Of a stretch of DNA of 64,000 bases, positions 28,816 through 47,437 are shown in pieces. Each line of letters starts with the position of its first letter. Position 1 is the first letter of the stretch. A model generated the notes under the pieces. That model was not told the origin of the DNA. It saw only the letters and a program-made list of their open reading frames with translations, and did not search any database. A program made the translations under genes and the position numbers. The DNA is from Gammaproteobacteria bacterium (GTDB lineage: Bacteria; Pseudomonadota; Gammaproteobacteria; Burkholderiales; Rhodocyclaceae): the NCBI GenBank assembly GCA_018824085.1, contig JAHJHI010000034.1:124001-188000 (forward strand). Direction: 5' to 3'.

Positions 28816-29030
28816 ATGCAGGATGTCGGCACTTTTGCGCGGGTATAGCGTGATATTCCACCGGGTCGCGTGCATGCCTGTTTGACGGAGTTGAGGCTGA
28901 ACTGCAAGAATATGTGACAGTCGCCTGTTTTCCCGCATGAGTTCGTTTGCGGACGGGCGTTTTGCATACCAATAATCAGGCGGTCGCCGGCTCCCCCATA
29001 TCGGGACGCCATAACTTTGCGGGGGTGTGC

Positions 29031-31628
29031 GTGGCCAAAGCCGCTATCTGGAAGACGGACTGGTTCCTCGGCACCGTCATCAGCGTCCTGTTCCTGTTTT
29101 CAGCTTCTTCGGACCTGATCCAGAGTCTTGAACGCAAGGCGTACGACGTCGGCGTCAGCGCCAGCGAGCGTACACCGAGTCCGCGCATCGCAATCATCGC
29201 GATCGACCAGCAGAGCATCGACAACATTGGCCGCTGGCCGTGGCCGCGCGACGTTCACGCACGCATGATCGACAAGCTGGCCGAGGCACAGGCCAAGGTG
29301 GTCGGCACGACGATCTTCTTTGCCGAACCGCAGCTGGATCCGGGGCTTGCCTACATCAATCGCCTGCTTGCAATGGAGCAGCAGGCGCGCGAGGCCCGCG
29401 AACGCGCGGCGTTGGCCCCGGCCGAGGATGGTCTGGTGCCCCCGCAGGTGCCGGCAAGCGGCGAACTTGATGCGTTCGGCGATGTGCTGCGCGAGGCCGA
29501 GCGTGCGCTCAATACTGACCGGCAACTCGCGCAGAGCATGGCGAAGGCGGGCAATGTCGCGTTGCCCATGCTGTTCCTCGACGGCGAACCCCAGGGACGG
29601 CCGGACCGGGAATTGCCCGATTTCGTGCGCAAGACGGCGCTGGTGCACGTGGAGGGTACGGACCCCTTGCCGCCGCTCACGCTCGACGTGTCGGCCGGCG
29701 TGATAGAGCCGCTCGGCAAGGTGGCCACCGCAGTCGGCCATCTCAACCCGTCGATCGACCGTGACGGCGGCTTCCGCCTGCAGCCGCTGGTCGTGACCCA
29801 CTTCGACCAGCTCTACCCCTCACTTTCCCTGCTGGTTGCCGCGCGGAGCCTGAATCTGGGTGTTGACGACATTCGCGTGACGCTCGGCGAGTCGGTGTCG
29901 CTGGGCCGTCTGCGGATCGCCACCGATCCCGGCCTGGGCATGTACAGCTTCTATTACCGGGGAGTGGACGGCAAACCTGCCTTCCCCGTCGATTCGTTCT
30001 TTGACGTCATGAGCGGCAAGATCCCGCTCGACAAGTACCGCGACAAGATCGTGCTGATCGGACCGACGGCGCCCGGCATCGGCAACTTCTACGCGACGCC
30101 GGTGTCGCCGGCGATGTCGTCGGTCGAAGTCATGGCGCACGGCCTGTCCAGCATCCTGCAGGAGCACTTCGTCGTGACGCCGTCCTGGTCATGGGCGGCG
30201 GAACTGGCGGTATTCCTGCTGGTCGCGCTCTACCTCATCGTTGTCCTGCCGCGCCTCAAGGCGGGGCTGGGCGCCGGCGTGACGGCGCTGTTGTTTGTCG
30301 CCTTGCTGGTGACGCACTTCGTGCTGATGACGAGTCAGCTGATGTGGCTGCAGCTGATGCTTCCGGCGGCGCTGTTGCTGGTCGGCCACCTGTTGCTGAC
30401 GACCAAGCGTTTCCTCGTGACAGAGCGCGGCAAGGTGAAGTCGGACGAACAATCGGCCGAATCGAACCGCATGCTGGCGCTCGCTTTCCAGGGCCAGGGG
30501 CAGCTCGACATGGCCTGGGACAAGTTCCGGCAGGTCCCGCTGTCAGATGCGGTCATGGACAACCTCTACAACCTTGCGCTCGACTTCGAGCGCAAGCGCC
30601 AGTTCAACAGGGCGGAAGCGGTGTTCCGCCACATGGCCGAATTCAATCCGGCGTTCAAGGATCTGGAAACCCGCGTCAAGCGTGCCAAGGCGATGTCGGA
30701 GACCGTCATGCTTGGCGGCGGTGCCGGCGGCCGCACGAACGCGAGCATGCTCGACGACGGCACGATGGAAAAGCCGATGCTGGGGCGTTACCAGGTCGAG
30801 AAGGAACTTGGCAAGGGGGCCATGGGCGTTGTCTATCTCGGCCGCGATCCGAAGATCAATCGCGTGGTGGCGATCAAGACGATGGCGCTCGCACAGGAGT
30901 TCGACGAGGAGGAACTCGCCGACGTGAAGGAGCGCTTCTTCCGCGAGGCGGAAACGGCCGGGCGGCTGAACCATCCGAACATCGTCACGATATTCGATGC
31001 CGGCGAAGAGCATGACCTTGCCTACATCGCGATGGAGTTTCTCAAGGGCCGGGATCTCGTGCCGCAGACCAAGCCCGGCCAGCTGATGCCGCTGCCGACG
31101 GTGATGGGCATCGTGGCGCGCGTGGCCGATGCGCTGGCCTACGCGCACGGCAACAACGTCGTCCATCGCGACGTGAAGCCGGCAAACATCATGTACGAGG
31201 CGGAATCCGATCAGGTGAAGGTGACCGACTTCGGCATCGCGCGCATCACCGATTCTTCAAGGACGAAGACGGGCATGGTGCTCGGCACGCCGTCCTACAT
31301 GTCGCCCGAGCAGCTGGCCGGCAAGAAGATCGACGGCCGCTCCGACCTGTTCTCGCTGGGCGTGATGCTGTTCCAGCTGGTGTGCGGAAAGTTGCCCTTC
31401 GAGGGCGAGTCGATGGCGCAGCTCATGTTCCGCATCGCCAACGATGCACATCCGGACATTCGCGACATTCGCCCTGACGTGCCCGACTGCCTTTCTGCGA
31501 TCATCGACCGCGCGCTGGCGAAGGACGCCGAAGCGCGTTATCAGTCGGGTACGGACATGGCGGCGGACCTGCGCGCCTGCGCCGGCAGCTTCACCCTTTC
31601 CATCACACAGGTCGATTTCAGCATCTGA
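29031..31628 (+). CDS. CHASE2-domain transmembrane Ser/Thr protein kinase
   Basis: 865 aa. Layout: one transmembrane helix (about 10-28), an extracytoplasmic CHASE2 sensor (about 30-375), three transmembrane helices (about 385-465), a TPR-like helical linker (about 475-550) and a C-terminal Hanks-type kinase (about 583-850). Kinase motifs: glycine loop LGKGAMGVVYLG, Lys in VVAIKTMA, catalytic loop HRDVKPANIM, DFGIA and TPSYMSPEQ. The juxtamembrane segment has a Thr in SETVMLGG that may be a phosphorylation site. GTG 29031 chosen, with GGGGG upstream. The frame extends to a TTG at 28947, which would put a polar leader before the first helix. First gene of a kinase, phosphatase and FHA set. Confidence 0.92.
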   Translation: MAKAAIWKTDWFLGTVISVLFLFSASSDLIQSLERKAYDVGVSASERTPSPRIAIIAIDQQSIDNIGRWPWPRDVHARMIDKLAEAQAKVVGTTIFFAEPQLDPGLAYINRLLAMEQQAREARERAALAPAEDGLVPPQVPASGELDAFGDVLREAERALNTDRQLAQSMAKAGNVALPMLFLDGEPQGRPDRELPDFVRKTALVHVEGTDPLPPLTLDVSAGVIEPLGKVATAVGHLNPSIDRDGGFRLQPLVVTHFDQLYPSLSLLVAARSLNLGVDDIRVTLGESVSLGRLRIATDPGLGMYSFYYRGVDGKPAFPVDSFFDVMSGKIPLDKYRDKIVLIGPTAPGIGNFYATPVSPAMSSVEVMAHGLSSILQEHFVVTPSWSWAAELAVFLLVALYLIVVLPRLKAGLGAGVTALLFVALLVTHFVLMTSQLMWLQLMLPAALLLVGHLLLTTKRFLVTERGKVKSDEQSAESNRMLALAFQGQGQLDMAWDKFRQVPLSDAVMDNLYNLALDFERKRQFNRAEAVFRHMAEFNPAFKDLETRVKRAKAMSETVMLGGGAGGRTNASMLDDGTMEKPMLGRYQVEKELGKGAMGVVYLGRDPKINRVVAIKTMALAQEFDEEELADVKERFFREAETAGRLNHPNIVTIFDAGEEHDLAYIAMEFLKGRDLVPQTKPGQLMPLPTVMGIVARVADALAYAHGNNVVHRDVKPANIMYEAESDQVKVTDFGIARITDSSRTKTGMVLGTPSYMSPEQLAGKKIDGRSDLFSLGVMLFQLVCGKLPFEGESMAQLMFRIANDAHPDIRDIRPDVPDCLSAIIDRALAKDAEARYQSGTDMAADLRACAGSFTLSITQVDFSI

Positions 31629-31629
31629 C

Positions 31630-32433
31630 ATGAATCAGGATCTCAGCCAGGCACTGCAGATGGTCAGCCGCAGCAATGCGGGCATGGTTCGCACGCATAA
31701 CGAAGACGCGATTTTCACGCGGACCGATGTCGGCCTCGCGATACTCGCTGACGGCATGGGCGGTTACAACGCCGGTGAAGTGGCAAGCGGCATGGCCACT
31801 GCCGTCATTGGAGCGGAACTGGAACAGGCGCTGCGCGAAAGCAGGCAGGGTGTGTCCGAACTGCTTGAAACGGTCATCGGGCAGGCCAATACGGCAATCT
31901 ATCAGGCCGCGGACAGCCAGCCTCAGTACTCGGGCATGGGTACGACGCTGGTTATGGGCGTATTCCGCAATGACCGGATATCCGTTGCGCATATCGGGGA
32001 CTCGCGCATGTACCGGTTGCGCGACGGTGCTTTCGAATGCATCACCCGCGATCACTCGCTGTTGCAGGAGCAAATCGACAGCGGCATGATTACGGAGGAA
32101 GATGCGCGGCGCTCCCAGAACAAGAATCTCGTGACGCGTGCGCTGGGCGTAGACCCCGTGGTCGAGCCGGAGATACACACGTACGAGGTGTTGCCGGGCG
32201 ACCTCTACCTGTTCTGCTCGGACGGGTTGAACGACATGGTCGACAACGAAGATATCGCGCTGACCTTGCAGGCCTTGTCAGCCAATCTGGACCTCGCAGC
32301 TGAGCAGCTCATCCAGATGGCCAATGACAACGGTGGTCGTGACAATGTGTCGGTGATACTGGTCAAGGTGATGCAGGCCTATCCGGCGACGGAACGCGGA
32401 TGGGTCGCGCGCCTGCTTGCATGGTTGAAGTGA
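31630..32433 (+). CDS. PP2C-family Ser/Thr phosphatase (Stp1/PrpC-like)
   Basis: 267 aa. All metal-binding motifs are present: RTHNEDA, ADGMGGYNAGE, SGMGTTLV, AHIGDSRMYR, LFCSDGLNDM and GGRDNVSVILV. Expected to reverse phosphorylation by the kinase whose stop codon is one base upstream of its ATG. A C-terminal extension of about 25 residues ends in a Trp-rich amphipathic piece that might touch the membrane. Confidence 0.93.
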   Translation: MNQDLSQALQMVSRSNAGMVRTHNEDAIFTRTDVGLAILADGMGGYNAGEVASGMATAVIGAELEQALRESRQGVSELLETVIGQANTAIYQAADSQPQYSGMGTTLVMGVFRNDRISVAHIGDSRMYRLRDGAFECITRDHSLLQEQIDSGMITEEDARRSQNKNLVTRALGVDPVVEPEIHTYEVLPGDLYLFCSDGLNDMVDNEDIALTLQALSANLDLAAEQLIQMANDNGGRDNVSVILVKVMQAYPATERGWVARLLAWLK

Positions 32434-32445
32434 AGGGACTGGAAA

Positions 32446-33252
32446 ATGGCAAAATTGATACTCAGCATGGATGGTCTGGTCCTGAAGGAGCTTCCGCTCG
32501 CAAAGGAGCGCACGACGATCGGGCGCAAACCGCACAACGACATCCAGATCGACAACCTCGCGATCAGCGGTGAGCATGCGGTCATCGTGACCATCCTCAA
32601 TGACTCGTTTCTCGAGGACATGAACAGCACCAACGGCACCTACGTGAACGGGCAGCCGATCAAGAAGCACTTCCTGCAGAACAACGATGTGGTCGAGCTT
32701 GGCAAGTACCGCCTCAAGTACATCAACGAGACGCCCGCTCAGGCACAGTCACCGGATTTCGAAAAAACCATGGTGCTGCGCCCCGACATGATGCGCAAGG
32801 CGCCAGCAGACGCGCCGGCGACGGCTTCCGCGCCGCCCGCCCGCGCGGCCATCGACACCCAGGTCGGCTTCCGTCCGGGGCAGTCGATGCCTGCCGGTAC
32901 GTCGGTTCCGGGCAGTGCCGGTCTGCCGCCACCACCCGCTCCGCTGGCGAGTCCGCCGCCGGCGCCGTCGAACATGGCGGGTGCGAGCCAGATCGGGGCC
33001 ATCCAGATATTGAACGGCGCCAATGCGGGGCGTGAGCTTGAACTGACCAAGACGCTGACCACGCTGGGCAAGCCGGGCCTGCAGGTGGCGGTCATCACAC
33101 GCCGTCCTCAGGGCTATTTCATCACCCACGTGGAAGGTGCGAATTTCCCCGTCGTCAACGGCCGCCAGCTCGATGCCCAGGCGCATCCGCTGGAGGATCA
33201 CGACGTGATCGAGATCGCGGGCGTCAAGATGGAGTTCTTCGTCAAACGCTGA
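32446..33252 (+). CDS. Two-FHA-domain phosphothreonine-binding protein
   Basis: 268 aa. The N-terminal FHA domain (about 1-95) has the canonical GRKPHNDI, SGEHA and NSTNGTYVNG motifs for phosphothreonine binding. A Thr in FEKTMVLRP follows directly, then a Pro/Ala-rich linker (about 120-180), then a second, degenerate FHA-like fold (about 185-268) that lacks the GR and S-x-x-H residues but keeps FPVVNGRQL. Likely an adaptor or read-out for the upstream kinase. 12 bases downstream of the phosphatase gene. Confidence 0.88.
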   Translation: MAKLILSMDGLVLKELPLAKERTTIGRKPHNDIQIDNLAISGEHAVIVTILNDSFLEDMNSTNGTYVNGQPIKKHFLQNNDVVELGKYRLKYINETPAQAQSPDFEKTMVLRPDMMRKAPADAPATASAPPARAAIDTQVGFRPGQSMPAGTSVPGSAGLPPPPAPLASPPPAPSNMAGASQIGAIQILNGANAGRELELTKTLTTLGKPGLQVAVITRRPQGYFITHVEGANFPVVNGRQLDAQAHPLEDHDVIEIAGVKMEFFVKR

Positions 33253-33355
33253 CGGTCCGGTCACCTTTCATGCCGCCGCCCGCGTTGTCCGATGCCGCGA
33301 TGCGCACTGGCCGCGCGCGCGGCCACCGCCTTCCGGCCCTTCCGGGGATGCGCCA

Positions 33356-35593
33356 ATGAATCAGCAGATGCTGCGGCATGGCATCGGGGTCGTGCTGCTG
33401 CTTGTACTGCTCGGGCATGCGGCACGGCTCTACCAGATTCCGGTTCTCGGGAATCTCGATTACCTCGCCTACGACGCGAAGCTGTCGCTCACCATGCCCG
33501 AGGGCGTGGACGAGCGGGTCGTCATCCTGGACATCGACGAACGCTCGCTTGCCGAAATCGGTCGCTGGCCGTGGGGCCGCGAACGTCTGGCGACGCTGCT
33601 CGATACGCTGTTCGATCACTACGGCGTGAGCCTGCTCGGCATCGACGTCGTCTTTGCGGAGCCGGATACGAGCTCCGGCTTGCCCACGCTGGAGCGTCTG
33701 GCCGAAGGGCCGCTCGCCGACGACGCGAGGTTCCGGAGCGCGCTCGATGCCTTGCGCCCGCAACTTGACTACGACACGCGTTTCGCTGCCGCGCTCAAGG
33801 ACCGTCCTGTGCTGCTCGGCTACTACTTCAGTGGGCGCGGCGACGGGCTCAGCAGCGGTGCATTGCCCGAACCGGTGTTGCCGGCCGGCACCTTTCGCGG
33901 CCGCAACATCGCCTTTGCCGGTTTCGACAGTTTCGGCGCAAATCTCGAACGCTTCCAGAGTGCCGCGCTTGGCGCCGGCCACTTCAATCCGCTGCCTGAT
34001 TTCGACGGCCTCAACCGCAGGGTGCCGATGCTTGTCGAGTACAAGGGCGCGTACTACGAGTCCTTGTCGCTGGCTGTCGTGCGGACCTTGCTGGGCAGCC
34101 CGAATGTCGTGCCCGGCTATGCGGAGGGAGGCCTGTTCTCGGTGTCGGCGCGCGACTACGGCGGGCTGGAATGGCTTGATCTTCCGGCACGCCAGGGCAC
34201 CCTGCGCATTCCGGTCGACGAGAACGTTGCCGCGCTGATCCCCTATCGCGGCCGGCAGGGCAGCTTTGCCTATCATTCCCTGGCCGACGTCCTGGCCGGA
34301 CGCACGCCCGCCGATGCCCTGAAGGGGCGCATTGCCCTGCTTGGGACTACCGCGCCCGGGTTGCTTGACCTGCGGGCCACGCCGGTGGGCAGCTCGTACC
34401 CCGGCGTCGAAATCCACGCCAATCTCATCGCAGGCATGCTGGACGGACGCATCAAGCATCGGCCGCAATACGTGACCGGTTTTGACGTCGTCGTGCTCGT
34501 GCTGGTAGCCGCACTGCTGATCTGGGCCCTTCCGCGGCTGTCGCCGCAGAACGGCACGCTGCTTGTCGTGGCGACGCTTGCCGGGCTGGTCGGCATGAAT
34601 TTCGCGTTCTGGCAGCTTGCAGACTTCGTGCTGCCGCTCGCCGCCAGCGTATTGCTCGTGCTGGGGCTCTACGCGCTCAACATGTTCTACGGCTATTTCT
34701 TCGAATCGCGTTCGAAGCGCCAGTTCACGCGCATGTTTGGTCAGTACGTGCCGCCCGAGCTCGTGGCGGAAATGAGCCGCAATCCGGAGCACTACAGCAT
34801 GGAGGGGCGGACCGCCGAACTGACCGTGCTGTTCTCCGACGTGCGCGGCTTCACCAGCATTTCCGAAGGGCTGGAACCGAAGCAATTGGCACAGCTCATG
34901 AACGAATACCTGGGCGCAATGACTTCCGTGGTGCAGGATCAGCGCGGTACGCTCGACAAGTACATTGGCGACGCGATCATGGCGTTCTGGGGTGCGCCCG
35001 TGGATGATGCGGAACATGCCCGGCACGCCGTTGCCACGGCGCTGCACATGCATGCGAAGCTGGAGCATCTGAACCGCTCTCTGGCGGCGCGCGGATGGCC
35101 GCAACTGAAGATCGGCGTGGGCGTGAACACCGGTTCGATGACGGTGGGCGACATGGGGTCGCCGGTGCGCAAAGCCTATACTGTCATGGGCGACGCGGTG
35201 AATCTGGCGTCGCGTCTTGAAGCGCTGACGAAGCAGTACGGTGTGGGCGTTCTGGTAGGCGATTCGACGCGGCGTGCCGTGACGGATGTCGTGTTCCGGG
35301 AAGTGGACCGTGTGCGCGTGAAGGGCAAGGACGAACCTGTTGCGATCTACGAGCCGCTGGCGTTCGAGAGCGATTTCGATCGCAGCCGGGTGGAGGAGCT
35401 GAAGCTCTGGAATCTGGCGCTGCGCCAGTTCCGGGCGCAGGAATGGGACCAGGCCGAATTGTCGCTGTTCAACCTGCAGCGAATGGCGCCGCAGTGCGCG
35501 CTTTACCGGATGTACGCCGAACAGATCGGACACTATCGGCGCGAGCCGCCGGGCAAGGACTGGGATGGTGTGCGGACGTTTGAAACGAAGTAG
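33356..35593 (+). CDS. CHASE2-domain class III adenylate/guanylate cyclase
   Basis: 745 aa. N-terminal helix (about 5-22), periplasmic CHASE2 (about 25-365), three transmembrane helices (about 372-450) and a cytoplasmic cyclase domain (about 480-665). Metal Asp residues in FSDVRGF and YIGDAIMAFWG, substrate-base Lys in DKYIGD and a Thr in YTVMGDAVNLASRLE fit the class IIIb (Lys/Thr) adenylate type, with the transition-state Asn and Arg in NLASRLE present. cAMP is therefore the likely product. Shares its sensor architecture with the kinase two genes upstream. A C-terminal tail of about 70 residues has TPR-like helices. 103 bases after the FHA gene. Confidence 0.92.
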   Translation: MNQQMLRHGIGVVLLLVLLGHAARLYQIPVLGNLDYLAYDAKLSLTMPEGVDERVVILDIDERSLAEIGRWPWGRERLATLLDTLFDHYGVSLLGIDVVFAEPDTSSGLPTLERLAEGPLADDARFRSALDALRPQLDYDTRFAAALKDRPVLLGYYFSGRGDGLSSGALPEPVLPAGTFRGRNIAFAGFDSFGANLERFQSAALGAGHFNPLPDFDGLNRRVPMLVEYKGAYYESLSLAVVRTLLGSPNVVPGYAEGGLFSVSARDYGGLEWLDLPARQGTLRIPVDENVAALIPYRGRQGSFAYHSLADVLAGRTPADALKGRIALLGTTAPGLLDLRATPVGSSYPGVEIHANLIAGMLDGRIKHRPQYVTGFDVVVLVLVAALLIWALPRLSPQNGTLLVVATLAGLVGMNFAFWQLADFVLPLAASVLLVLGLYALNMFYGYFFESRSKRQFTRMFGQYVPPELVAEMSRNPEHYSMEGRTAELTVLFSDVRGFTSISEGLEPKQLAQLMNEYLGAMTSVVQDQRGTLDKYIGDAIMAFWGAPVDDAEHARHAVATALHMHAKLEHLNRSLAARGWPQLKIGVGVNTGSMTVGDMGSPVRKAYTVMGDAVNLASRLEALTKQYGVGVLVGDSTRRAVTDVVFREVDRVRVKGKDEPVAIYEPLAFESDFDRSRVEELKLWNLALRQFRAQEWDQAELSLFNLQRMAPQCALYRMYAEQIGHYRREPPGKDWDGVRTFETK

Positions 35594-35616
35594 TTTTCCT
35601 GGCGCATGAGGAGCTG

Positions 35617-36384
35617 ATGAGGATACGGGTGCTCGGTTGCAGTGGCGGCATAGGCGGCGCGAACCTGCGCACCACCTCGCTGCTGATTGATGACGATATC
35701 CTGGTCGATGCCGGGACGGGCGTCGGTGATCTGTCCATCGCCGAGCTCAAGCGCATTGATCACGTGTTCGTCACGCATAGCCATCTCGACCATATCGCCT
35801 GTCTGCCGCTGATGGTGGATACGGTGGGCGAGTTGCGCGATCGTCCACTTACGGTGTGGAGCACGGCGCCGACGATAGAGGTGTTGCGCCGCCACATCTT
35901 CAACTGGTCCATCTGGCCCGATTTCACGGAGATTCCGTCCGTCGAGCGGCCCTTCATGTGCTTCCGCGAACTGCGGGTCGGCGATGAAATCGACATGCGG
36001 GGCAGGGCGGTGCGCGTGCTGCCGGCGCAGCATACGGTGCCTGCCGTCGGATACGCGTTGCGCGGTGATGGCGGTACGCTGGCTTTCTCCGGCGACACGA
36101 CGGTGTGCGACGACTTCTGGGCGGCCGTGAATGCACTGCCCGACCTTCGCTACCTGATCATCGAAACCGCATTTCCGGATCGCGACAAGCAGCTGGCGGT
36201 GATGTCGCGCCACCTGTGTCCGACGATGCTTTCCGACGAGCTCGACAAGCTGCGGCATCCGGCCGAGATCTACATCACGCATCTGAAACCGAGCCAGATG
36301 GTGATGACGATGCGCGAGATCAATGAGTCGCTGGGCGCACGGAAGCCACGCATGTTGCGCAACAATCATGTTTTCGACTTCTGA
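35617..36384 (+). CDS. Metallo-beta-lactamase-fold hydrolase, possible class II cyclic-nucleotide phosphodiesterase
   Basis: 255 aa. THSHLDHI (about residues 52-59) supplies the paired metal site, AQHTVPAVG, SGDTTVCDDF and the late THLKPSQM complete the set. The HSHLDHI-x-CLP run and the FxEIPS-type middle resemble class II cAMP phosphodiesterases (PDE1/CpdP family) more than tRNase Z or lactonases. Next to a cyclase, cAMP hydrolysis is the simplest guess, but substrate is unproven. GAGGAG precedes the ATG. Confidence 0.82.
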   Translation: MRIRVLGCSGGIGGANLRTTSLLIDDDILVDAGTGVGDLSIAELKRIDHVFVTHSHLDHIACLPLMVDTVGELRDRPLTVWSTAPTIEVLRRHIFNWSIWPDFTEIPSVERPFMCFRELRVGDEIDMRGRAVRVLPAQHTVPAVGYALRGDGGTLAFSGDTTVCDDFWAAVNALPDLRYLIIETAFPDRDKQLAVMSRHLCPTMLSDELDKLRHPAEIYITHLKPSQMVMTMREINESLGARKPRMLRNNHVFDF

Positions 36385-36453
36385 CCGGCGCGACCGGCAT
36401 GCGCCACGCGCAGCTGCCGGTGTGCTGCCGGTCCGCACGGACGAGGTGATGAA

Positions 36454-38829
36454 ATGAGTGTGGCGACGCCTCCGGCGAGCGACCTGGGCGCAATGAGCGA
36501 CGTTTCCAGCCGGCTTGCCTTCTTCAAGAACCTGCAGGGTGTGACCAACCGGATCCACGCGACGACGAATATCGACGAAATCATGCTTGAACTGTCGCAG
36601 GAGATTTCCGCGCTGTTCAACGCTGACCGTCTGACGATCTATGTGCTCGGCGACGACCGGTCGACCATCGTGTCCAAGGTCAAGACCGGTCTGAACTCGT
36701 TCAAGGACCTGCGCCTGCCGCTGACCGAGCAGTCCATAGCCGGTTTCGTCGGCATGAGCCGCAAGCTGCTGAATCTGCGCGACGTCTACGACGAGGACGA
36801 GCTGAAGTCGCACGCGCCCAGCCTGCGATTTCTCGATGGCGTGGACAAGAAGACCGGCTATCGCACCAAGCAGATGCTGGTGGCCCCGATTCTGGACCCG
36901 GAAAAGAAGGACTTGCTAGGCGTCGTCCAGCTCATCAACAACAAGGCCGGACAGCCGTTCTCGGCGCTGGCCGAAGAGGGGTTGCTCAGCATGGCGCACA
37001 CGCTGGCCGTGGCGTTCCAGCAGCGCAGCAAGCCGGCGCATGTCGTGAAGTCCAAGTACGACTATCTGGTCGTCGATGGCGTCATGTCGGCACAGGAGTT
37101 CGATCTTGCATCGCGGGCGGCGCGGCGCAAGGGCCTCGACATCGAGGACATCCTGACGCGCGACTTCCAGGTCAAGCAGGCGGCCATCGGCAACTCACTG
37201 TCCAAGTTCTTCGGCGTCGAGCACGAACCGTTCAGGGCCGAGCGGATCAAGCCGTTCGACCTCATCAAGAACCTCAAGCGCGAGTATCTCGAAGAGCAGC
37301 AGTGGGTACCGGTGGAAGAGGGGCGGGATGGCATCGTCATCATTGCGCTCGATCCCGAGAAGGTCAAAGGATCGCGCGTCATCAACAACATCTTCCCGAA
37401 GTCGAAGCTGATCTACCGGGTGACGACGACCCGCGAATTCGTGCAGACGCTCGACCTGTTCTACGGTTCGACGATGGACGACACCAGTGTCGGCGATCTG
37501 CTGTCCGACATGCTGAGCGAGGAAGACGAGGCGATCGAGTCGGGCGGCGACGATGTCAGTGCCGCCGCCGACAACGAGCTGGTACGCCTGGTCAACAAGA
37601 TCATCGTCGATGCCTATCAGCAGGGCGCGTCCGACATCCACATCGAACCGCGTCCCGGCAAGGACAAGACGCATGTGCGCTTCCGCAAGGACGGCACGCT
37701 GCACCCGTACATCGAAGTTCCGGCCAGCTACCGCAGCGCGCTGGTCACGCGCCTGAAGATCATGTGCGACCTCGACATTTCGGAGCGTCGCAAGCCGCAG
37801 GACGGCAAGATCAAGTTCCGCAAGTTCGGTCCGCTGGACATCGAGTTGCGGGTGGCCACCATTCCGTCCGCTGGCGGCGTCGAAGACGTGGTGATGCGTA
37901 TCCTCGCCGCGGGCGAACCCATTCCCATCGACAAGCTGGGCGTGCTGCCCTACAACCTCGGCAAGCTGAAGGAGGCGGTGAGCAAGCCGTACGGCCTGTT
38001 CTTCGTGTGCGGTCCGACCGGTTCCGGCAAGACGACCACGCTGCACTCCATCCTCGGCTACATCAACACGCCGGAAACCAAGATATGGACCGCTGAAGAC
38101 CCGGTCGAAATCACGCAGAAGGGGTTGCGCCAGGTCCAGATCAACAAGAAGGCCGGGCTGGATTTTCCGGCCATCATGCGCGCCTTCCTGCGGGCCGACC
38201 CCGACGTGATCATGGTCGGCGAAATGCGCGACCGCGAAACGGTCGCCATCGGCATCGAAGCATCGCTGACCGGCCACCTCGTGTTCTCGACGCTGCATAC
38301 CAACAGCGCACCCGAGTCCATCGTGCGCCTGCTCGACATGGGGATGGATCCGTTCAACTTTGCTGACGCGCTGCTCGGCATCCTCGCGCAGCGCCTCGCG
38401 AAGCGGCTCTGTCCGTCATGCAAGGAAGCCTGGCATCCGAGCGCGGATGAAATGAAGCACTTCGTCGAGGAGTACTGCGGAGAGTTGCGCAACACGACGG
38501 ACTTCAAGATCGACGCCGAGGGCGCGATGAATGCCGTGCTGGCGAACTGGCGCAGCGCCTACGCCGACGACAAGGGCCGCTTCACGTTTCATCGCGCCAA
38601 GGGATGTTCCGAATGTGGCGAAACGGGATACCGCGGTCGTCTCGGCCTGCATGAACTGATGATAGGCACCGACGCGATCAAGAAGCACATCCAGGAGCGG
38701 GAGCGCGTGGCAACGATGCTGGCGACCGCACTTGAAGAGGGCATGCGCACACTGAAGATGGACGGCATGGAAAAGGTGCTCGCCGGCGCGACGGACATGA
38801 AGCAGGTTCGTGCGGTGTGCATCAAATAG
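36454..38829 (+). CDS. GAF/MshEN-like/GspE-PilB secretion ATPase chimera
   Basis: 791 aa. An N-terminal GAF sensor (about 25-190), an MshEN-like segment (about 205-265) and a type II secretion/type IV pilus ATPase (about 390-791). Walker A GPTGSGKTTTLHS (about 520), Walker B DPDVIMVGEMRDRE (about 583) and two CxxC pairs (LCPSCKE about 651, CSECGE about 717) for Zn are intact, so catalysis is likely. The MshEN RLG motif reads KYD, so canonical c-di-GMP binding is doubtful. No pilC/gspF, prepilin peptidase or pilin gene is adjacent except pilA two genes on. A PilB paralogue tuned by a small ligand is one reading. Confidence 0.9.
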   Translation: MSVATPPASDLGAMSDVSSRLAFFKNLQGVTNRIHATTNIDEIMLELSQEISALFNADRLTIYVLGDDRSTIVSKVKTGLNSFKDLRLPLTEQSIAGFVGMSRKLLNLRDVYDEDELKSHAPSLRFLDGVDKKTGYRTKQMLVAPILDPEKKDLLGVVQLINNKAGQPFSALAEEGLLSMAHTLAVAFQQRSKPAHVVKSKYDYLVVDGVMSAQEFDLASRAARRKGLDIEDILTRDFQVKQAAIGNSLSKFFGVEHEPFRAERIKPFDLIKNLKREYLEEQQWVPVEEGRDGIVIIALDPEKVKGSRVINNIFPKSKLIYRVTTTREFVQTLDLFYGSTMDDTSVGDLLSDMLSEEDEAIESGGDDVSAAADNELVRLVNKIIVDAYQQGASDIHIEPRPGKDKTHVRFRKDGTLHPYIEVPASYRSALVTRLKIMCDLDISERRKPQDGKIKFRKFGPLDIELRVATIPSAGGVEDVVMRILAAGEPIPIDKLGVLPYNLGKLKEAVSKPYGLFFVCGPTGSGKTTTLHSILGYINTPETKIWTAEDPVEITQKGLRQVQINKKAGLDFPAIMRAFLRADPDVIMVGEMRDRETVAIGIEASLTGHLVFSTLHTNSAPESIVRLLDMGMDPFNFADALLGILAQRLAKRLCPSCKEAWHPSADEMKHFVEEYCGELRNTTDFKIDAEGAMNAVLANWRSAYADDKGRFTFHRAKGCSECGETGYRGRLGLHELMIGTDAIKKHIQERERVATMLATALEEGMRTLKMDGMEKVLAGATDMKQVRAVCIK

Positions 38830-38839
38830 GGCAGCCCGC

Positions 38840-40471
38840 ATGGACACTCTCGACGACCTGCTGCGCAGGCTTGAACAACTCAACGAGATCGGAGCCGCGC
38901 TGTCGAACGAGCGCAGCATCGACGCGCTGCTCGAAAAGATACTGCTGGCGGCCAAGACCATCACGCATGCCGATGGCGGTACGCTCTACCGCACCGACGA
39001 GGCGGCGGAACATCTGCGTTTCGAAATCATGCGCACCGACTCCCTGGGCATCGCGATGGGCGGCACCAGCGGCAAGCGCATCGTGTTTGCGCCGCTGCCG
39101 CTGCATCTCGACGACGGCGCCCCCAATCTGTCCATGGTGGCGGCCTACAGCGCGCTGAAGCGCGAAACGGTCAACATCGCAGACGCCTACCGCGCTGACG
39201 GCTTCGACTTCTCCGGCACGCGCGCCTTTGACGCCCGCACCGGATACCGCTCGACCAGTTTCCTTACCGTGCCGATGATGAATCACGAAGGTCGCGTGAT
39301 CGGCGTGCTGCAACTCATCAATGCAGTCAGCCCGGTGTCGGGTGCCGTAAGTGCGTTCACCGACTCCGACCGGCGTCTGGTCGAATCGCTCGCGTCGCAG
39401 GCCGCCATCGCGCTGACCAACCGGCAGCTGGTAAGCCAGCTCGAGGCGCTGTTCGAGTCCTTCATCACGCTCATCAACAACGCGATCGACGAGAAGTCTC
39501 CCTACACGGGCGGCCATTGCCAGCGTGTGCCGACGCTGACCATGATGCTCGCCGAAGCGGTGAACGATACGGCTGAAGGCCCGCTGGCCGGTTTCACGAT
39601 GACCGACGCCGACCGCTACGAACTGAAGATCGCGGGCCTGCTGCACGACTGCGGCAAGGTGACGACGCCGGTGCACGTCGTCGACAAGGCAACCAAGCTG
39701 CAGACCATCTTCGACCGCATCGAGCTGGTCGACACGCGTTTCGAGCTGATACGCCGGGACATCCAGCTGTCGGCGCTGCAAAGCCGCCTGCAGGCGGGGC
39801 CGGAGGCGAGCCAGACGGTGCTTGCCCGGATCGAACGTCACGGCGCCGACCGCCTGCGCGACATCGACGAAGACCGCGCTTTCCTGCACCACGCCAACAT
39901 CGGCTCGGAGCGGATGGGCGACGCCGACGTCGAACGCGTGCATGCCATCTCGCGGCGCTGGCGCTGGACCGATGCGCAGGGCGGGGAACACGCCTGCCTG
40001 AGCGACGACGAGGTGGAGAACCTCACGATACGAGCCGGCACGCTGACCGGTGCCGAGCGCGAAATCATCAACTACCACATCGAGTCGACGATACGCATGC
40101 TGGAAGCGCTGCCCTGGCCGCGCCACCTCGCCAACGTGCCCGAATACGCGGGTGGCCACCACGAACGCATGGACGGCAAGGGCTACCCGCGCGGGCTGAC
40201 GCGCGAGCAGATGAGCGTGCAGGCCCGCGTGATGGGCATCGCCGACATCTTCGAGGCGCTGACCGCGAAGGACCGCCCGTACAAGCGTCCGATGCGCCTG
40301 TCCGAGGCGCTGCACATCCTCGGCAAGTTCCGCCTGAACGGCCACATCGACCCCGATCTGTTCGACGTGTTCGTGCGCCAGCGCGTCTATCTCAAGTACG
40401 CCGATATGTATCTCGACGCCGAACAGATCGACCCGGTCGACTTCTCCGCCATCCCCGGCTACCAGCCCTGA
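38840..40471 (+). CDS. GAF and HD-GYP domain protein (c-di-GMP phosphodiesterase type)
   Basis: 543 aa. A short coiled helix, a GAF domain (about 10-195) and an HD-GYP domain (about 205-520). Metal motifs LLHDCGK (about 268-274) and HHERMDGKGYP (about 440-450) are intact, so hydrolysis of c-di-GMP to pGpG or GMP is predicted. Between HD and GYP lies roughly 110 residues more than usual, with its own charged helices. Cytosolic, no transmembrane segment. Starts 10 bases after the GspE-like gene and shares the GAF type, so the two may sense the same ligand. Confidence 0.9.
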   Translation: MDTLDDLLRRLEQLNEIGAALSNERSIDALLEKILLAAKTITHADGGTLYRTDEAAEHLRFEIMRTDSLGIAMGGTSGKRIVFAPLPLHLDDGAPNLSMVAAYSALKRETVNIADAYRADGFDFSGTRAFDARTGYRSTSFLTVPMMNHEGRVIGVLQLINAVSPVSGAVSAFTDSDRRLVESLASQAAIALTNRQLVSQLEALFESFITLINNAIDEKSPYTGGHCQRVPTLTMMLAEAVNDTAEGPLAGFTMTDADRYELKIAGLLHDCGKVTTPVHVVDKATKLQTIFDRIELVDTRFELIRRDIQLSALQSRLQAGPEASQTVLARIERHGADRLRDIDEDRAFLHHANIGSERMGDADVERVHAISRRWRWTDAQGGEHACLSDDEVENLTIRAGTLTGAEREIINYHIESTIRMLEALPWPRHLANVPEYAGGHHERMDGKGYPRGLTREQMSVQARVMGIADIFEALTAKDRPYKRPMRLSEALHILGKFRLNGHIDPDLFDVFVRQRVYLKYADMYLDAEQIDPVDFSAIPGYQP

Positions 40472-40482
40472 ACTGACAATTT

Positions 40483-40537
40483 GTGTCACATGGTGCCGGC
40501 CGGCGTCAGTCCACCAGCATGTGTTTCAGACTGTGTC
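40483..40537 (+). promoter_or_regulatory. GTGTC boxes upstream of pilA, possible PilR sites
   Basis: Two GTGTC elements (40483-40487 and 40533-40537) lie about 110 and 60 bases upstream of the -24/-12 promoter. PilR of Pseudomonas binds clustered (C/G)TGTC boxes upstream of pilA. The resemblance is suggestive only. Confidence 0.4.
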
Positions 40538-40595
40538 AGCACGTCTGCAACAAAAAATCACATGAATTCAAGTGGATGTAAAAAAGTGCCAAAGC

Positions 40596-40610
40596 TGGCA
40601 CCCGCCTTGC
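40596..40610 (+). promoter_or_regulatory. Sigma-54 promoter of pilA
   Basis: TGGCACCCGCCTTGC has GG and GC elements with exactly ten bases between them, matching the -24/-12 consensus TGGCAC-N5-TTGC. It lies 55 bases before the pilA ATG and is the expected promoter type for a PilS/PilR-controlled major pilin. Confidence 0.88.
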
Positions 40611-40665
40611 TCGATATCCACCTGAGCGCAACGGCGCCCGTACCGTTCAACCCCAGGAGATAGAC

Positions 40666-41130
40666 ATGAAGAAAGTCCAGCAAGGTTTTACCCTGATCGA
40701 ACTGATGATCGTCGTCGCGATCATCGGCATCTTGGCCGCGATCGCCATTCCGCAATATCAGGACTACACGGTGCGCGCGAAGATCGCCAGCGTGCTGGCT
40801 TCCCTTGGCGCGGTGAAGACGGCTGTTGGTATCTGCATCCAGGAAAACGGTGGCGATGAAAGTGTATGTGATGCAGGTGATTTTAATATTCCGACCACGC
40901 TTCAGACCAACGAGATCGCGAGCATTGCCGTAGATGGAGGAGAGATCACCGCAACGCTGAATACTGGCATCGGCAAGAATGTAGGTGGTGACCTCGTTCT
41001 CAGGCCCACTGCGAATTCAAATTCCGCAAGCGTGACTTGGACCTATCAAGCCGACGGAATCACGAACACTGTCGCTACTGAAGCAATCGAGAAGACGTAC
41101 GCCAAGTACGGCGGCGGCGGCGGTAGCTAA
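40666..41130 (+). CDS. pilA: Type IV major pilin PilA
   Basis: 154 aa prepilin. Short leader MKKVQQG, cleavage before Phe8, then Glu at mature position 5 and the hydrophobic assembly helix [20 protein letters not shown]. Only two Cys (57 and 68), close together in the alpha-beta loop, so the classical C-terminal disulfide loop is absent. The protein ends in five Gly and one Ser, encoded by a GGC triplet run (41110-41124). A strong AGGAG precedes the ATG. Flanked by a sigma-54 promoter and a perfect terminator, so mostly monocistronic. Confidence 0.95.
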
Positions 41131-41150
41131 GCTTGCAAGGACTGATGCAG

Positions 41151-41178
41151 AAAGGAGCTCTCCGAGCTCCTTTTTTTT
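41151..41178 (+). terminator. Rho-independent terminator after pilA
   Basis: GGAGCTC (41154-41160) pairs with GAGCTCC (41164-41170) around TCC, preceded by AAA and followed by eight T. Ends the abundant pilA message, and limited read-through could feed the next gene. Confidence 0.92.
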
Positions 41179-41199
41179 GATCCTTACAGACTCTCCCCC

Positions 41200-42651
41200 A
41201 TGAAGCAGACGATCAATTTCCGGAACATGGGAATGCAGCCCTGTCTGGCGCAGGCGCGTCTTGCGCTGCTTGTGATCGGTTTCTTTGCATCGGGCTTCAG
41301 CGCCTTTCTGTTGTTCAAACCTGAATATCCGTACTCCTGGTACGACCATCAGCGCGTGATGCAAATGCTGTGGCTGACGCTGTCAATGGTGTTCCTGCCC
41401 TTTACAAGCGAAGACACAAGGCATCGCTTGCTCGGGATCATGGCAATGCTGGCTGTTGCGGGTGTCGCGTTGCCACTGCTGCATGGCGTGTCGCCACGTG
41501 CGATGTACATCGAGGCCCTCTCTCTTGCCTTGCTGGTGATCGCAGCGAGCTGGTGGGCAGGCCTGATCCGCGCGCATGGCCTGTCCGACGCCCTGCTGCT
41601 GAGCGCACAGCTCGCCATTGCCTGGTACGTCTTCCTTTCACTGCTGTCCCTTGCCGCCCTGCTGGTTGTGGGCGTATTGCCGAACCCCTTCACCTTCCTC
41701 GACGGGTTCAGCAACCCGCGCTTTTTCGGCGCGTGGATCACGCTTTCCTGGCCTTTGCTGTTGTTGCGGCCACGCATTCTCGAGCACGCTGGCGCGCGCC
41801 GCGCACGGCTCTGGGGTGCCGCCCTGTTCGTGTTGCTGGCCTTGTGGTGGGCGCTCGCCTTCTTTTCCGGTACCCGCGCAACCTGGCTTGCAGCTGCCGT
41901 CACGCTGGTGCTGACAGCGCTGTGCAGCAGGTCAGCCCGCAGTCTGGCGGTGCGCGCGGCACTGGCGATCTTTACCGGATTTCTGCTGCACCAGATGCTG
42001 TTCGTGCTCATGCCGGCCTGGGCGACCGGCCTTGACTCCGCGAACGCCCTGGACAGATTGCGGGAGGGAATGGCGTTGTCGAGCCGTGACGTGCTGTGGA
42101 AGCTGGCATGGCAAGGCATCGTTGAACGGCCGTGGTTCGGTGCCGGGCCGATGATGTTCTCCGCGACCAACAATGGCGTCGCCAGTACCACGCACAATAT
42201 CACGCTGCAGCTGGCGTATGAATGGGGGGTGCCGTTTGCGCTGGTGGTCATTGCCTGCACCGGGCGCGCGTTGTGGCGCCAGTTCCTGCTTTGCCGGACG
42301 GACGGTGGCCCGGTCCGCCTCGTGCTCTGGATGTGCATTGTCGGCGGACTGGTCGAAGCGCAGTTCGACGGCTTGCTGAGCGCGCCGCACAGCCAGTTCC
42401 TGTTCACCGTGTTGTGTGCCTGGCTGTTGTCGCTCGATGCGCCGGCGCAGCCCCGACTCGACGGCTGGCGCGCGCGCGCGTGGCCGGTGGCGCGCTTCGT
42501 TCCGCTGGCCGTGGCGCTGCTGTTGTGGTGGTCTGTCCGGCCGGAGCTGTCGCGTCTGGAAGCGTGGGAGTACGAGTGTTTTAAGCTCACCGGTGCCGGG
42601 CACTTCCAGCCCCGATACTGGGGGCAGGGGGTGATCTTTCCGGACAACTGA
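41200..42651 (+). CDS. O-antigen ligase-like protein, candidate pilin O-oligosaccharyltransferase
   Basis: 483 aa membrane protein with about twelve hydrophobic segments and a large periplasmic loop near residues 275-345, the layout of the Wzy_C/WaaL/PglL/TfpO group. The conserved segment RPWFGAGPM (about 310) followed by HNITLQLAYEWGVP is the family's loop signature, including the usual loop His. Its position just downstream of pilA, plus the C-terminal Ser of that pilin, matches tfpO (pilO) of Pseudomonas aeruginosa group I strains. No lipopolysaccharide genes are near. A Wzy or WaaL role elsewhere cannot be excluded. Confidence 0.8.
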   Translation: MKQTINFRNMGMQPCLAQARLALLVIGFFASGFSAFLLFKPEYPYSWYDHQRVMQMLWLTLSMVFLPFTSEDTRHRLLGIMAMLAVAGVALPLLHGVSPRAMYIEALSLALLVIAASWWAGLIRAHGLSDALLLSAQLAIAWYVFLSLLSLAALLVVGVLPNPFTFLDGFSNPRFFGAWITLSWPLLLLRPRILEHAGARRARLWGAALFVLLALWWALAFFSGTRATWLAAAVTLVLTALCSRSARSLAVRAALAIFTGFLLHQMLFVLMPAWATGLDSANALDRLREGMALSSRDVLWKLAWQGIVERPWFGAGPMMFSATNNGVASTTHNITLQLAYEWGVPFALVVIACTGRALWRQFLLCRTDGGPVRLVLWMCIVGGLVEAQFDGLLSAPHSQFLFTVLCAWLLSLDAPAQPRLDGWRARAWPVARFVPLAVALLLWWSVRPELSRLEAWEYECFKLTGAGHFQPRYWGQGVIFPDN

Positions 42652-45982: not shown

Positions 45983-47437
45983 ATGAGTCACTTCTTCACC
46001 GCAAGCCGCCTGCGCGCGGCCATCATCGGGCTCATGCTCGTACCGCTCGGCGTTCCGGCGCAGAACCTTCCGGATCTTGGCGACGTGGCGCAGGCCGATT
46101 TGCCGCCGGCGCTGGAACGGCGTATCGGCGAATCACTGTGGCGCGACGTGCGGGCGAGCGAACGCACCTACATCAGTGATCCTGAAGTCAGCGGCTATCT
46201 GAACCAGCTCGCGGACAAGCTGGTGGCGAAGCTGCCCGATTCGCGCCAGGACTTCGAGCTGTTTGCGCTGCGTGACCCGACGCTCAACGCCTTCGCCTGG
46301 CCGGGCGGATTCATCGGCGTGCACAGCGGGCTCATCATCACCGCGCAGAGCGAGTCGGAACTGGCTTCCGTCATCGCGCATGAAATTTCCCACGTGACGC
46401 AACGCCACATCGCGCGCCAGTTCGCCAAGCGGGGCGAAATGAGCGTGATCGCGATCGCGTCGCTGATCGTTGCCGCGCTCGCCGCGCGCGGCAATTCGCA
46501 GGCGGCGCAGGCGGCGCTGGTCGGCGGTCAGGCCGCCAGCATCGCAGCGCAGCTTGCCTATACGCGCGACTTCGAGCGCGAAGCGGACCGCATCGGGCTG
46601 CAGATGCTCGATGGCGCCGGGTTCGACACCCGTGCGATGGCGGCGTTTTTCGAGCGCATCCAGCGCTCGTCGCGCCTGTACGAAGGCAATGCGCCGTCCT
46701 ATCTGCGCACCCATCCGCTGACCGCCGAACGCATCGCCGACGCCAGTGCGCGCATCCAGCAGACGGCGTATCGCCAGGTGCCCGACAGCATCGACTTCCT
46801 GCTGGTGCGTGCCAAGCTGCGCGCCTACGACGGCGATGCCCGCGCGGCGCTGGCGGAATTCGACGAGCGCCTGCGTGACGTGCAGGGCAACGCGCGCATC
46901 GCGGCACGTTTCGGTCTGGCCCACGCGGCCTTGCGCCTGCGCGACTTCACGCACGCGCAGCAGGAGGTCGACATGCTGCGTGCCGAACGCTTCGTCTCGC
47001 CGATGCTCGATTCGCTGGCGGGGCAGATCAGCCTCGATGCGGGAAACGCCGCCGTGGCAGTCGACCGCTTCCGCGATGGATTGAAGCGCGCGCCGCACGC
47101 GCGTGCGCTGACCTACGGCCTCATCGAAGCGCTGCTCGCCGACAAGCGGCCGCAGGAGGCGCTCGATGTCGTCAATGACGAAGTGACCGTATTCACGCAG
47201 GATCCGCAGCTGTTCCAGTACCAGGCGCGCACTTATGCGTTGCTCGGCAAGCGCCTGGCGCAGCACCGGGCGCAGGCCGAGGCCTATGTGCTCAACGGGC
47301 AGCTGCAGGCGGCCGTGGAGCAGCTCGAACTGGCGCAGCGCGCGGCCGACGGTGATTTCTACCAGCAGTCGGCAGTCGACGCGCGGCTGCGTGACCTGCG
47401 TGAGCGGCAGGTCGAACTGCGCCGCGACGGCCTCTGA
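45983..47437 (+). CDS. Periplasmic M48 metalloprotease/chaperone BepA-like
   Basis: 484 aa. Signal peptide (about 1-25, ending VPAQN), M48 protease domain with HEISH zinc motif near residue 133 and the third-ligand Glu in FEREADRIGLQ, then TPR repeats (about 265-470). BepA in E. coli helps LptD folding and degrades stalled outer-membrane proteins. The domain order matches. Confidence 0.92.
   Translation: MSHFFTASRLRAAIIGLMLVPLGVPAQNLPDLGDVAQADLPPALERRIGESLWRDVRASERTYISDPEVSGYLNQLADKLVAKLPDSRQDFELFALRDPTLNAFAWPGGFIGVHSGLIITAQSESELASVIAHEISHVTQRHIARQFAKRGEMSVIAIASLIVAALAARGNSQAAQAALVGGQAASIAAQLAYTRDFEREADRIGLQMLDGAGFDTRAMAAFFERIQRSSRLYEGNAPSYLRTHPLTAERIADASARIQQTAYRQVPDSIDFLLVRAKLRAYDGDARAALAEFDERLRDVQGNARIAARFGLAHAALRLRDFTHAQQEVDMLRAERFVSPMLDSLAGQISLDAGNAAVAVDRFRDGLKRAPHARALTYGLIEALLADKRPQEALDVVNDEVTVFTQDPQLFQYQARTYALLGKRLAQHRAQAEAYVLNGQLQAAVEQLELAQRAADGDFYQQSAVDARLRDLRERQVELRRDGL

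Follow-up and report, generated by a model that had tools for sequence, protein, structure and literature searches.

Genes and gene order of the cluster

We analysed a window of 64,000 nucleotides from a bacterium of the Rhodocyclaceae (GenBank assembly GCA_018824085.1, contig JAHJHI010000034.1, positions 124,001 to 188,000), whose 4.28 Mb genome has Methyloversatilis as its nearest named relatives. Between positions 29031 and 42651 this window carries nine intact open reading frames, all on the + strand, in which genes for Ser/Thr phosphorylation, cyclic AMP (cAMP) and cyclic di-GMP (c-di-GMP) signalling surround a secretion-family ATPase with a GAF domain and are followed by pilA and an O-antigen-ligase-like gene (Table 1). 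The gaps from the kinase to the HD-GYP gene measure 1, 12, 103, 23, 69 and 10 bases, those from the HD-GYP gene to pilA and from pilA to the Wzy_C gene 194 and 69 bases. An earlier note on this DNA, made from the sequence alone, had listed the nine genes with their coordinates, short gaps (1-103 bases as far as the HD-GYP gene) and domains, and a Pfam search found every named domain in all nine products. Only the kinase start is uncertain, the GTG at 29031 lying in a frame that is open back to a TTG at 28947. No terminator-like site was found on the + strand in the gaps between kinase and pilA, in a scan whose overall yield was near the shuffle mean (12 compared with 9.2).

Table 1. The nine genes of the cluster, with positions in the window and family matches
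Gene product	Position	Strand	Matches and features
CHASE2 Ser/Thr kinase (PKN)	29031..31628	+	CHASE2 190 bits, Pkinase 181.7 bits
PP2C-type (Stp1) phosphatase	31630..32433	+	NF033484 250.6 bits, cut-off 230
FHA protein	32446..33252	+	FHA 84.1 bits
CHASE2 class III adenylate cyclase (CYA)	33356..35593	+	CHASE2 178.6 bits, Guanylate_cyc 85 bits
Metallo-beta-lactamase (MBL) fold hydrolase, putative cAMP phosphodiesterase	35617..36384	+	Lactamase_B_2 61.7 bits, PDEase_II 54.5 bits
GAF-MshEN-T2SSE ATPase (GAFE), PilB/GspE type	36454..38829	+	T2SSE 388 bits
GAF-HD-GYP c-di-GMP phosphodiesterase-like protein	38840..40471	+	HD_5 147 bits, GAF 55 bits; HD; GYP motif
pilA	40666..41130	+	Pilin (PF00114) 41.8 bits; C-terminal residue Ser
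Wzy_C (O-antigen-ligase-like), likely TfpO-type pilin oligosaccharyltransferase	41200..42651	+	PF04932 37.8 bits

We collected relatives of the cluster by scanning GTDB species genomes with the ATPase. From the at least 593 relatives thus obtained we took the 80 best, with flanks of up to 10 kb; being the top of that set, these loci lean towards the window. Another 132 loci, each at most 20 kb long and containing an ATPase orthologue, came from two other match sets (29 and 103). Including the window, the set came to 213 loci, or 196 once 17 duplicates had been removed; the upstream side could be assessed at 162 of these and not at the other 34. Presence of a gene was decided by score cut-offs. 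All seven signalling genes, from kinase to HD-GYP, lie on one strand at 93 of the 196 loci, and 91 of these 93 keep exactly the order of the window, which is more than chance grouping. Among the 162 loci with enough upstream DNA, the kinase is present at 99, PP2C at 135, FHA at 139, the cyclase at 107 and the MBL gene at 146; the HD-GYP gene follows the ATPase at 150 of 182 loci, and sucD lies upstream within the stretch examined at 58 of 160. Together the results show that the cluster is a real, widely conserved unit in Betaproteobacteria, as the earlier note had supposed. Among the matches listed from the open-licence literature on CHASE2, cyclases, kinase/FHA/PP2C systems, GAF, MshEN, PilB, TfpB, cyclic-nucleotide-binding rhodanese proteins and pili, we found no description of this cluster.

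Independent occurrence of the genes in relatives, which the same note took as counting against a unit, is nevertheless seen in part. Many loci hold subsets, the ATPase standing with only the MBL gene of the six upstream genes at 12 of 162 loci and with none of the six at 5, and 7 of 25 genomes whose locus is without kinase and cyclase keep both kinds elsewhere, so that linkage is not obligatory. An alternative layout, with a divergent cyclase-HD-GYP-MBL arm, occurs at four loci (L052, L057, L061 and L068). Two loci from outside the order, L306 (793-5248; the two open reading frames end 1 base apart) and L307 (1289-8402), have a GAF-GspE-like gene with a CHASE2-cyclase-like gene opposite it. 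These two are not an unbiased sample, having been chosen for a CHASE2 match on the same contig; L308, also outside the order, has no cyclase match, and among eight genomes covered by both searches two have the two genes within 5 kb.

The active sites of the encoded proteins are conserved. The kinase keeps its VAIK, HRD and DFG core residues in 98-100% of 105 orthologues, PP2C its metal-site Asp and Gly residues in 100% of 144, and the FHA domain its G-R, S..H and N-G residues in 100% of 150. In class III cyclases two Asp bind the metals, a Lys and a Thr select adenine, and an Asn and an Arg are catalytic; all six are found in 100% of 123 orthologues, the pattern of a class III adenylate cyclase. 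Likewise, the HxHxDH motif and the further His/Asp ligands of the MBL hydrolase are present in 100% of 169 orthologues, and the HD, HHE and GYP residues of an HD-GYP phosphodiesterase in 98-100% of 155. The PDEase_II match of the MBL hydrolase exceeds its cut-off of 23.7 bits, its best stretch covering only profile positions 81-146 of 340, and NF041851 gives 38.6 against 400. Judged by these residues and those of the ATPase given below, neither the kinase, PP2C, cyclase, MBL and HD-GYP proteins nor the ATPase appears to be a pseudo-enzyme (105-192 orthologues each). Two Thr motifs are also kept, one in the FHA protein after the FHA domain (at about residue 108; Thr in 94% of 150) and one in the juxtamembrane part of the kinase (at about residue 558, or 586 from the TTG start; 96% of 105). 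They could be phospho-acceptors for the FHA domain, the part that a Thr plays in GarA and OdhI.

Kinase and cyclase: joint gain and loss, separate sensors

The two CHASE2 genes are found together more often than apart. Both are present at 96 of the 162 loci and neither at 52, the kinase stands alone at 3 and the cyclase alone at 11. Contrasts counted on starred branches of the ATPase tree gave 21 independent changes of the kinase, in which the cyclase goes the same way in 14.1 and the opposite way in 0.0 on average (median p 0.0001). This result holds when weaker matches are considered. Three loci scored as lacking the kinase have kinase-family matches (L275, a kinase without most of its sensor part, and fragments in L199 and L185), and five scored as lacking the cyclase have cyclase-family matches of 46-327 bits; the three above 300 bits (L239, L240 and L245) represent cyclase genes, each some 630 codons long and situated about 4 kb upstream. 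With the three kinase-family matches and these three cyclase genes scored as present, six in all, the counts become 98 both, 48 neither, 4 kinase only and 12 cyclase only, and 13.8 of 18 contrasts go the same way and 0.2 the opposite way. At L239, L240 and L245, where the locus itself has only the MBL gene and the ATPase, this upstream gene encodes another, divergent class III cyclase.

At 26 loci (one of them L275, with its shorter kinase gene) PP2C, FHA and MBL are present and both the CHASE2 kinase and the CHASE2 cyclase are missing. One deletion cannot explain these loci, since the retained PP2C and FHA genes lie between the two that are missing. The kinase is always accompanied by PP2C and FHA (99 of 99 loci), and PP2C always by FHA (135 of 135). 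When 25 genomes that lack kinase and cyclase at the locus were searched in full, both kinds were, in our reading, present elsewhere in 7, neither in 12, and the picture was mixed in 6 (G104, G159, G174, G225, G292 and G328); in the 7, all of family f22, the CHASE2 kinase is full-length and is joined by a CHASE2 cyclase. Together these data show that the linkage of kinase and cyclase can break, yet both tend to share their fate, and they support co-variation beyond shared ancestry. Plain erosion or relocation of the cluster, with no shared function behind the joint absence, would suit the 7 genomes that keep both kinds elsewhere. The 12 that have neither, the retention of PP2C and FHA between the two lost genes, and the near absence of opposite contrasts (at most 0.2 in 18-21) make this explanation quite improbable. 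Joint gain and loss around a kept PP2C-FHA pair offers a natural test bed for the wiring of such switches.

The earlier note had proposed that kinase and cyclase share the same periplasmic sensor and three-helix topology, and that one envelope signal may be read by both. The topology is confirmed, both proteins having one N-terminal hydrophobic segment and three after the CHASE2 domain. The sensors are the same only at family level: in the window the two CHASE2 domains are 35% identical, and the median within loci is 31.4% (100 loci), whereas the window domains share medians of 54.9% and 57.6% with their own orthologues. A tree of 62 CHASE2 domains (18 kinase and 18 cyclase domains from the loci plus 26 others; a quick method, with some long branches) puts the kinase domains in one clade and places the cyclase domains among CHASE2 cyclases found throughout the class. 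The two domains are not sisters, and origin of a shared sensor by local duplication was therefore rejected. Nor was special sensor-sensor co-evolution seen in distance residuals from 85 loci, the partial correlation being 0.275 between the sensors, 0.401 between kinase domain and cyclase domain and 0.262 between kinase sensor and PP2C. With sensor coupling no higher than that between kinase domain and cyclase domain and much like that between kinase sensor and PP2C, reading of one envelope signal by both proteins did not find support; a common signal is possible, judging from these comparisons, but not indicated. The CyaB cyclase of Pseudomonas aeruginosa has a CHASE2 domain. A third CHASE2 protein in the genome of the window (L003, L276; contig C53) carries a GGDEF motif.

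Predicted cAMP receptors and the putative pilus ATPase

We compared the N-terminal part of the ATPase with proteins of solved structure. A profile of this part finds the tandem GAF of Anabaena CyaB2 first in the PDB (1ykd, 2.9e-32; 1.3e-23 with the window ATPase alone), followed by 4mcw, a GAF of an HD-GYP protein, and by the GAFs of PDE2, PDE10, PDE5 and PDE6; by their names, 19 of the 26 matches are GAFs of the cyclic-nucleotide (cNMP) binding type. The residues of CyaB2 GAFb that contact cAMP, given in excerpts of PMC4411481 as R291, T293, I308, D356 and N359, align to R59, T61, V76, D131 and T134 of the ATPase. Among 192 orthologues R59 is kept in 192, T61 in 190, V/I/L76 in 189, D131 in 192 and T/S134 in 192, so that contact residues of a cNMP-type GAF are found at five positions, with V in place of I308 and T/S in place of N359. 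The NKFDE motif is kept in part (F 100%, N 62%, K 63%, E 80%, the D position mostly A, V or M). The GAF of the neighbouring HD-GYP protein was considered as a second receptor of the CyaB2 kind and is the weaker candidate, having G or A at the Arg position in 155 of 155 orthologues.

c-di-GMP is an unlikely input to the ATPase. The MshEN motif that binds it, RLGxx...G...L...L..Q, occurs twice in such proteins according to excerpts of PMC5013675. With the register set by the PilB match at residue 204, none of the 192 orthologues has the R, G or Q of motif I, and in motif II all 192 have E in place of the third-position G and F/Y in place of the final Q. Input through MshEN was therefore rejected.

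As a motor, the ATPase has the residues expected of the PilB/GspE type, with Walker A, Walker B and four Cys in 99-100% of the 192 orthologues. Paralogues in G017, G019, G030, G038 and other genomes have about 800-920 codons, are 45-63% identical, and align only from about residue 180 onward. We examined 300 genomes of the order, in 121 of which the ATPase is present (119 with a single match of at least 966 bits and two, G192 and G157, with the gene split over contigs); eight genomes whose matches were all weaker or incomplete were placed in the group lacking it. A class III cyclase (PF00211, 1e-8) was found in 118 of the 121 genomes with the ATPase and in 86 of the 179 without it, and PilM in 118 of 121 and 107 of 179, respectively. 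Restricted to genomes with PilM, the cyclase is present in 115 of 118 with the ATPase and in 61 of 107 without. Family tables, read by us from the genome lists, agree: 30 of 30 families with the ATPase have the cyclase compared with 14 of 21 without it (p 0.001), and for PilM the counts are 29 of 30 and 15 of 21 (p 0.015). Given that 118 of 121 genomes have the cyclase and 118 of 121 have PilM, it seems that the ATPase requires both a type IV pilus apparatus and a cyclase encoded at some place in the genome.

A second candidate receptor is encoded in relatives. At 41 of the 162 loci, though not in the window, a gene of about 360 codons lies between the MBL gene and the ATPase (for example L038:8900-9967). 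The three copies scanned match Pfam cNMP_binding and Rhodanese, the first cNMP domain being without a Pfam match. A profile of 29 copies ranks chains of cGMP-dependent protein kinase (PKG) and of the regulatory subunit of protein kinase A (PKA) first. An AlphaFold 2 model (mean predicted local distance difference test score 84) shows, as we interpret its secondary structure, a rhodanese and two folds of the cNMP-binding kind; Foldseek likewise places the regulatory tandem domains of PKA and PKG first, with full-chain TM-scores so low that we make no claim about the domain arrangement. The cassette FGEEAL...RNA, seen in the second cNMP domain only, and the rhodanese Cys are kept in 98-100% of 52 copies. 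The model, the Foldseek ranking and the residues of the second domain thus agree on two cNMP domains in tandem and an intact phosphate-binding cassette. All 16 full-length copies found in 61 relatives lie directly upstream of the ATPase gene, whereas no copy was found in 13 genomes of the window's genus. The gene occurs without a cyclase at the locus once in 41, and of 19 contrasts between cyclase and cNMP-rhodanese gene 6.1 go the same way and 0.0 the opposite way (median p 0.03). The likeness to the PKA regulatory subunit is one of fold and sequence, and the protein differs from it in ending in a rhodanese.

A possible regulatory module of a PilB-type motor

We suggest that the cluster may be a conserved module through which Betaproteobacteria regulate a PilB-type motor, a scheme on which our judgement is evenly balanced. 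Its observed base is the gene order, the intact active-site residues, the joint gain and loss of kinase and cyclase, and the nesting of the ATPase within genomes that have PilM and a cyclase. Two CHASE2 membrane proteins would read envelope conditions. The CHASE2 cyclase would make cAMP and the MBL hydrolase degrade it; cAMP would bind the GAF of the ATPase and gate its action on the type IV pilus, and in many relatives the PKA-regulatory-subunit-like tandem cNMP-binding-rhodanese protein would be a second reader of cAMP. The CHASE2 kinase would phosphorylate Thr sites, which PP2C would reset and the FHA protein read while docking on kinase and motor. In parallel, the HD-GYP protein would lower local c-di-GMP, and pilA with its glycosyltransferase, where adjacent, would be the output. 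The most far-reaching reading, a pilus motor gated directly by cAMP through its fused GAF, fed by the CHASE2 cyclase and the putative phosphodiesterase and cross-wired to the kinase-PP2C-FHA branch (and to the cNMP-rhodanese protein in many relatives), we put forward tentatively and with some doubt. Compared with this picture, the earlier note under-described the cAMP part and over-described the shared-sensor and c-di-GMP parts; neither the cNMP-rhodanese gene of relatives nor the cAMP-type character of the GAF was visible to its author.

Several observations weigh against the scheme. The pocket residues of the GAF are equally conserved at 55 loci without a cyclase, so that ligand supply there cannot be local. 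The match to 4mcw is also close, and we do not know its GAF to bind a cNMP; by fold alone, the domain of the ATPase resembles cNMP-binding and other GAFs alike. The MBL gene stays at 45 of the 55 cyclase-less loci, and contrasts between cyclase and MBL do not reach significance (5.1 same, 0.5 opposite of 19, median p 0.125), which makes their pairing weak. The kept pocket and the common fold would suit a conserved cluster whose GAF binds some other ligand, in which cAMP would act through CRP-like regulators and the cNMP-rhodanese protein and the ATPase would be a plain alternative pilus motor. The action of cAMP on P. aeruginosa pili through Vfr, in the account of the available parts of PMC11656802, is in keeping with it. 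We consider this alternative unlikely, though a serious contender: the sequence profile puts a cAMP-binding GAF first, and the class III cyclase match is absent in only 3 of the 121 genomes with the ATPase.

Further contrary points concern the machine on which the ATPase would act. It scores 458.1 bits against the PilB model TIGR02538, short of the cut-off of 675.65, and is below the GspE cut-off too. A TIGR02538 match at 1e-175 is present in only 60 of the 121 genomes with the ATPase compared with 116 of the 179 others (p 0.01); the other 61 have none. In the genome tables kinship and genome size are corrected for only in part, and a same-strand pilin gene adjoins in only 72 of 157 loci. Taken alone, the low scores and the often distant pilin would fit an ATPase that serves in signalling or drives a different machine of the type II/IV kind, with pilA nearby for other reasons; signalling by Myxococcus xanthus PilB for exopolysaccharide, described in excerpts of PMC5544727, is a precedent. 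Against this stand the PilM counts and the conserved Walker motifs and Cys, and we regard it as distinctly improbable. The PilB search scored only four candidates per genome at a strict threshold, on which two genomes of a single genus differ, G106 passing narrowly and G059 giving no match. Divergent PilB proteins may be hidden by these limits; alternatively, some lineages may use the ATPase in place of PilB, and where no PilB is recognisable, it may be the main extension motor.

Several known systems resemble the cAMP-gated motor proposed above in part. In P. aeruginosa the adenylate cyclase CyaB controls type IV pili as well (excerpts of PMC3019171 and PMC11656802), its cAMP acting through the transcription factor Vfr and its input being the Chp chemosensory system, whereas the cyclase of the cluster has a Ser/Thr kinase and a motor with a cAMP-type GAF as its neighbours. 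Anabaena CyaB2 has the closest solved GAF by sequence, with its cAMP-contact positions kept in the ATPase, and its GAF feeds back on its own cyclase (excerpts of PMC4411481) instead of sitting on a motor ATPase. MshE-type ATPases receive a second messenger through the N-terminal domain of an extension ATPase (excerpts of PMC5013675), as is predicted here; GAFE differs in its first MshEN motif, without Arg, Gly and Gln in 192 of 192, and in the cAMP-type GAF in front. Acinetobacter baylyi TfpB is likewise a second, divergent PilB-like ATPase besides PilB (excerpts of PMC8213720 and PMC11656802), whereas GAFE reaches 389.2 bits on the TfpB model against a cut-off of 850 and has a GAF domain. In the available parts of the review PMC11656802, the link between cAMP and type IV pili runs through transcription by Vfr; the review contains no mention of GAF. 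If the proposal is right, pilus output would answer to cAMP without new gene expression, by post-translational control of a secretion-family ATPase, and Ser/Thr phosphorylation, cAMP and c-di-GMP would be tied to one machine in a large, mostly environmental group of Betaproteobacteria.

The link to pilus function drawn by the earlier note gains support from the presence of PilM in nearly all genomes with the ATPase, and also from the window pilA being the sole PF00114 match found in its genome; the pilin that adjoins at 72 of 157 loci speaks for the link, its lack at the others against it. The putative pilin glycosyltransferase of the note is supported by the pilins themselves. In TfpO glycosylation, a Wzy_C protein is encoded beside a pilin with a C-terminal Ser/Thr. 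A final Ser or Thr is found in 13 of 15 pilins with a Wzy_C gene next to them compared with 18 of 66 without (p 3e-5), and, with one pilin per locus, in 13 of 15 compared with 18 of 58 (p 2e-4); L037 is counted among those without, though tblastn shows its Wzy_C gene. The pairing suggests that the Wzy_C protein is likely a TfpO-type pilin oligosaccharyltransferase. Downstream of the cluster lies a gene that we labelled LOIP (45983-47437), presumably an M48-type peptidase; at loci L066, L070, L073, L082, L099 and L106 a second kinase-family gene, 36-41% identical to the window kinase, stands beside a relative of LOIP.

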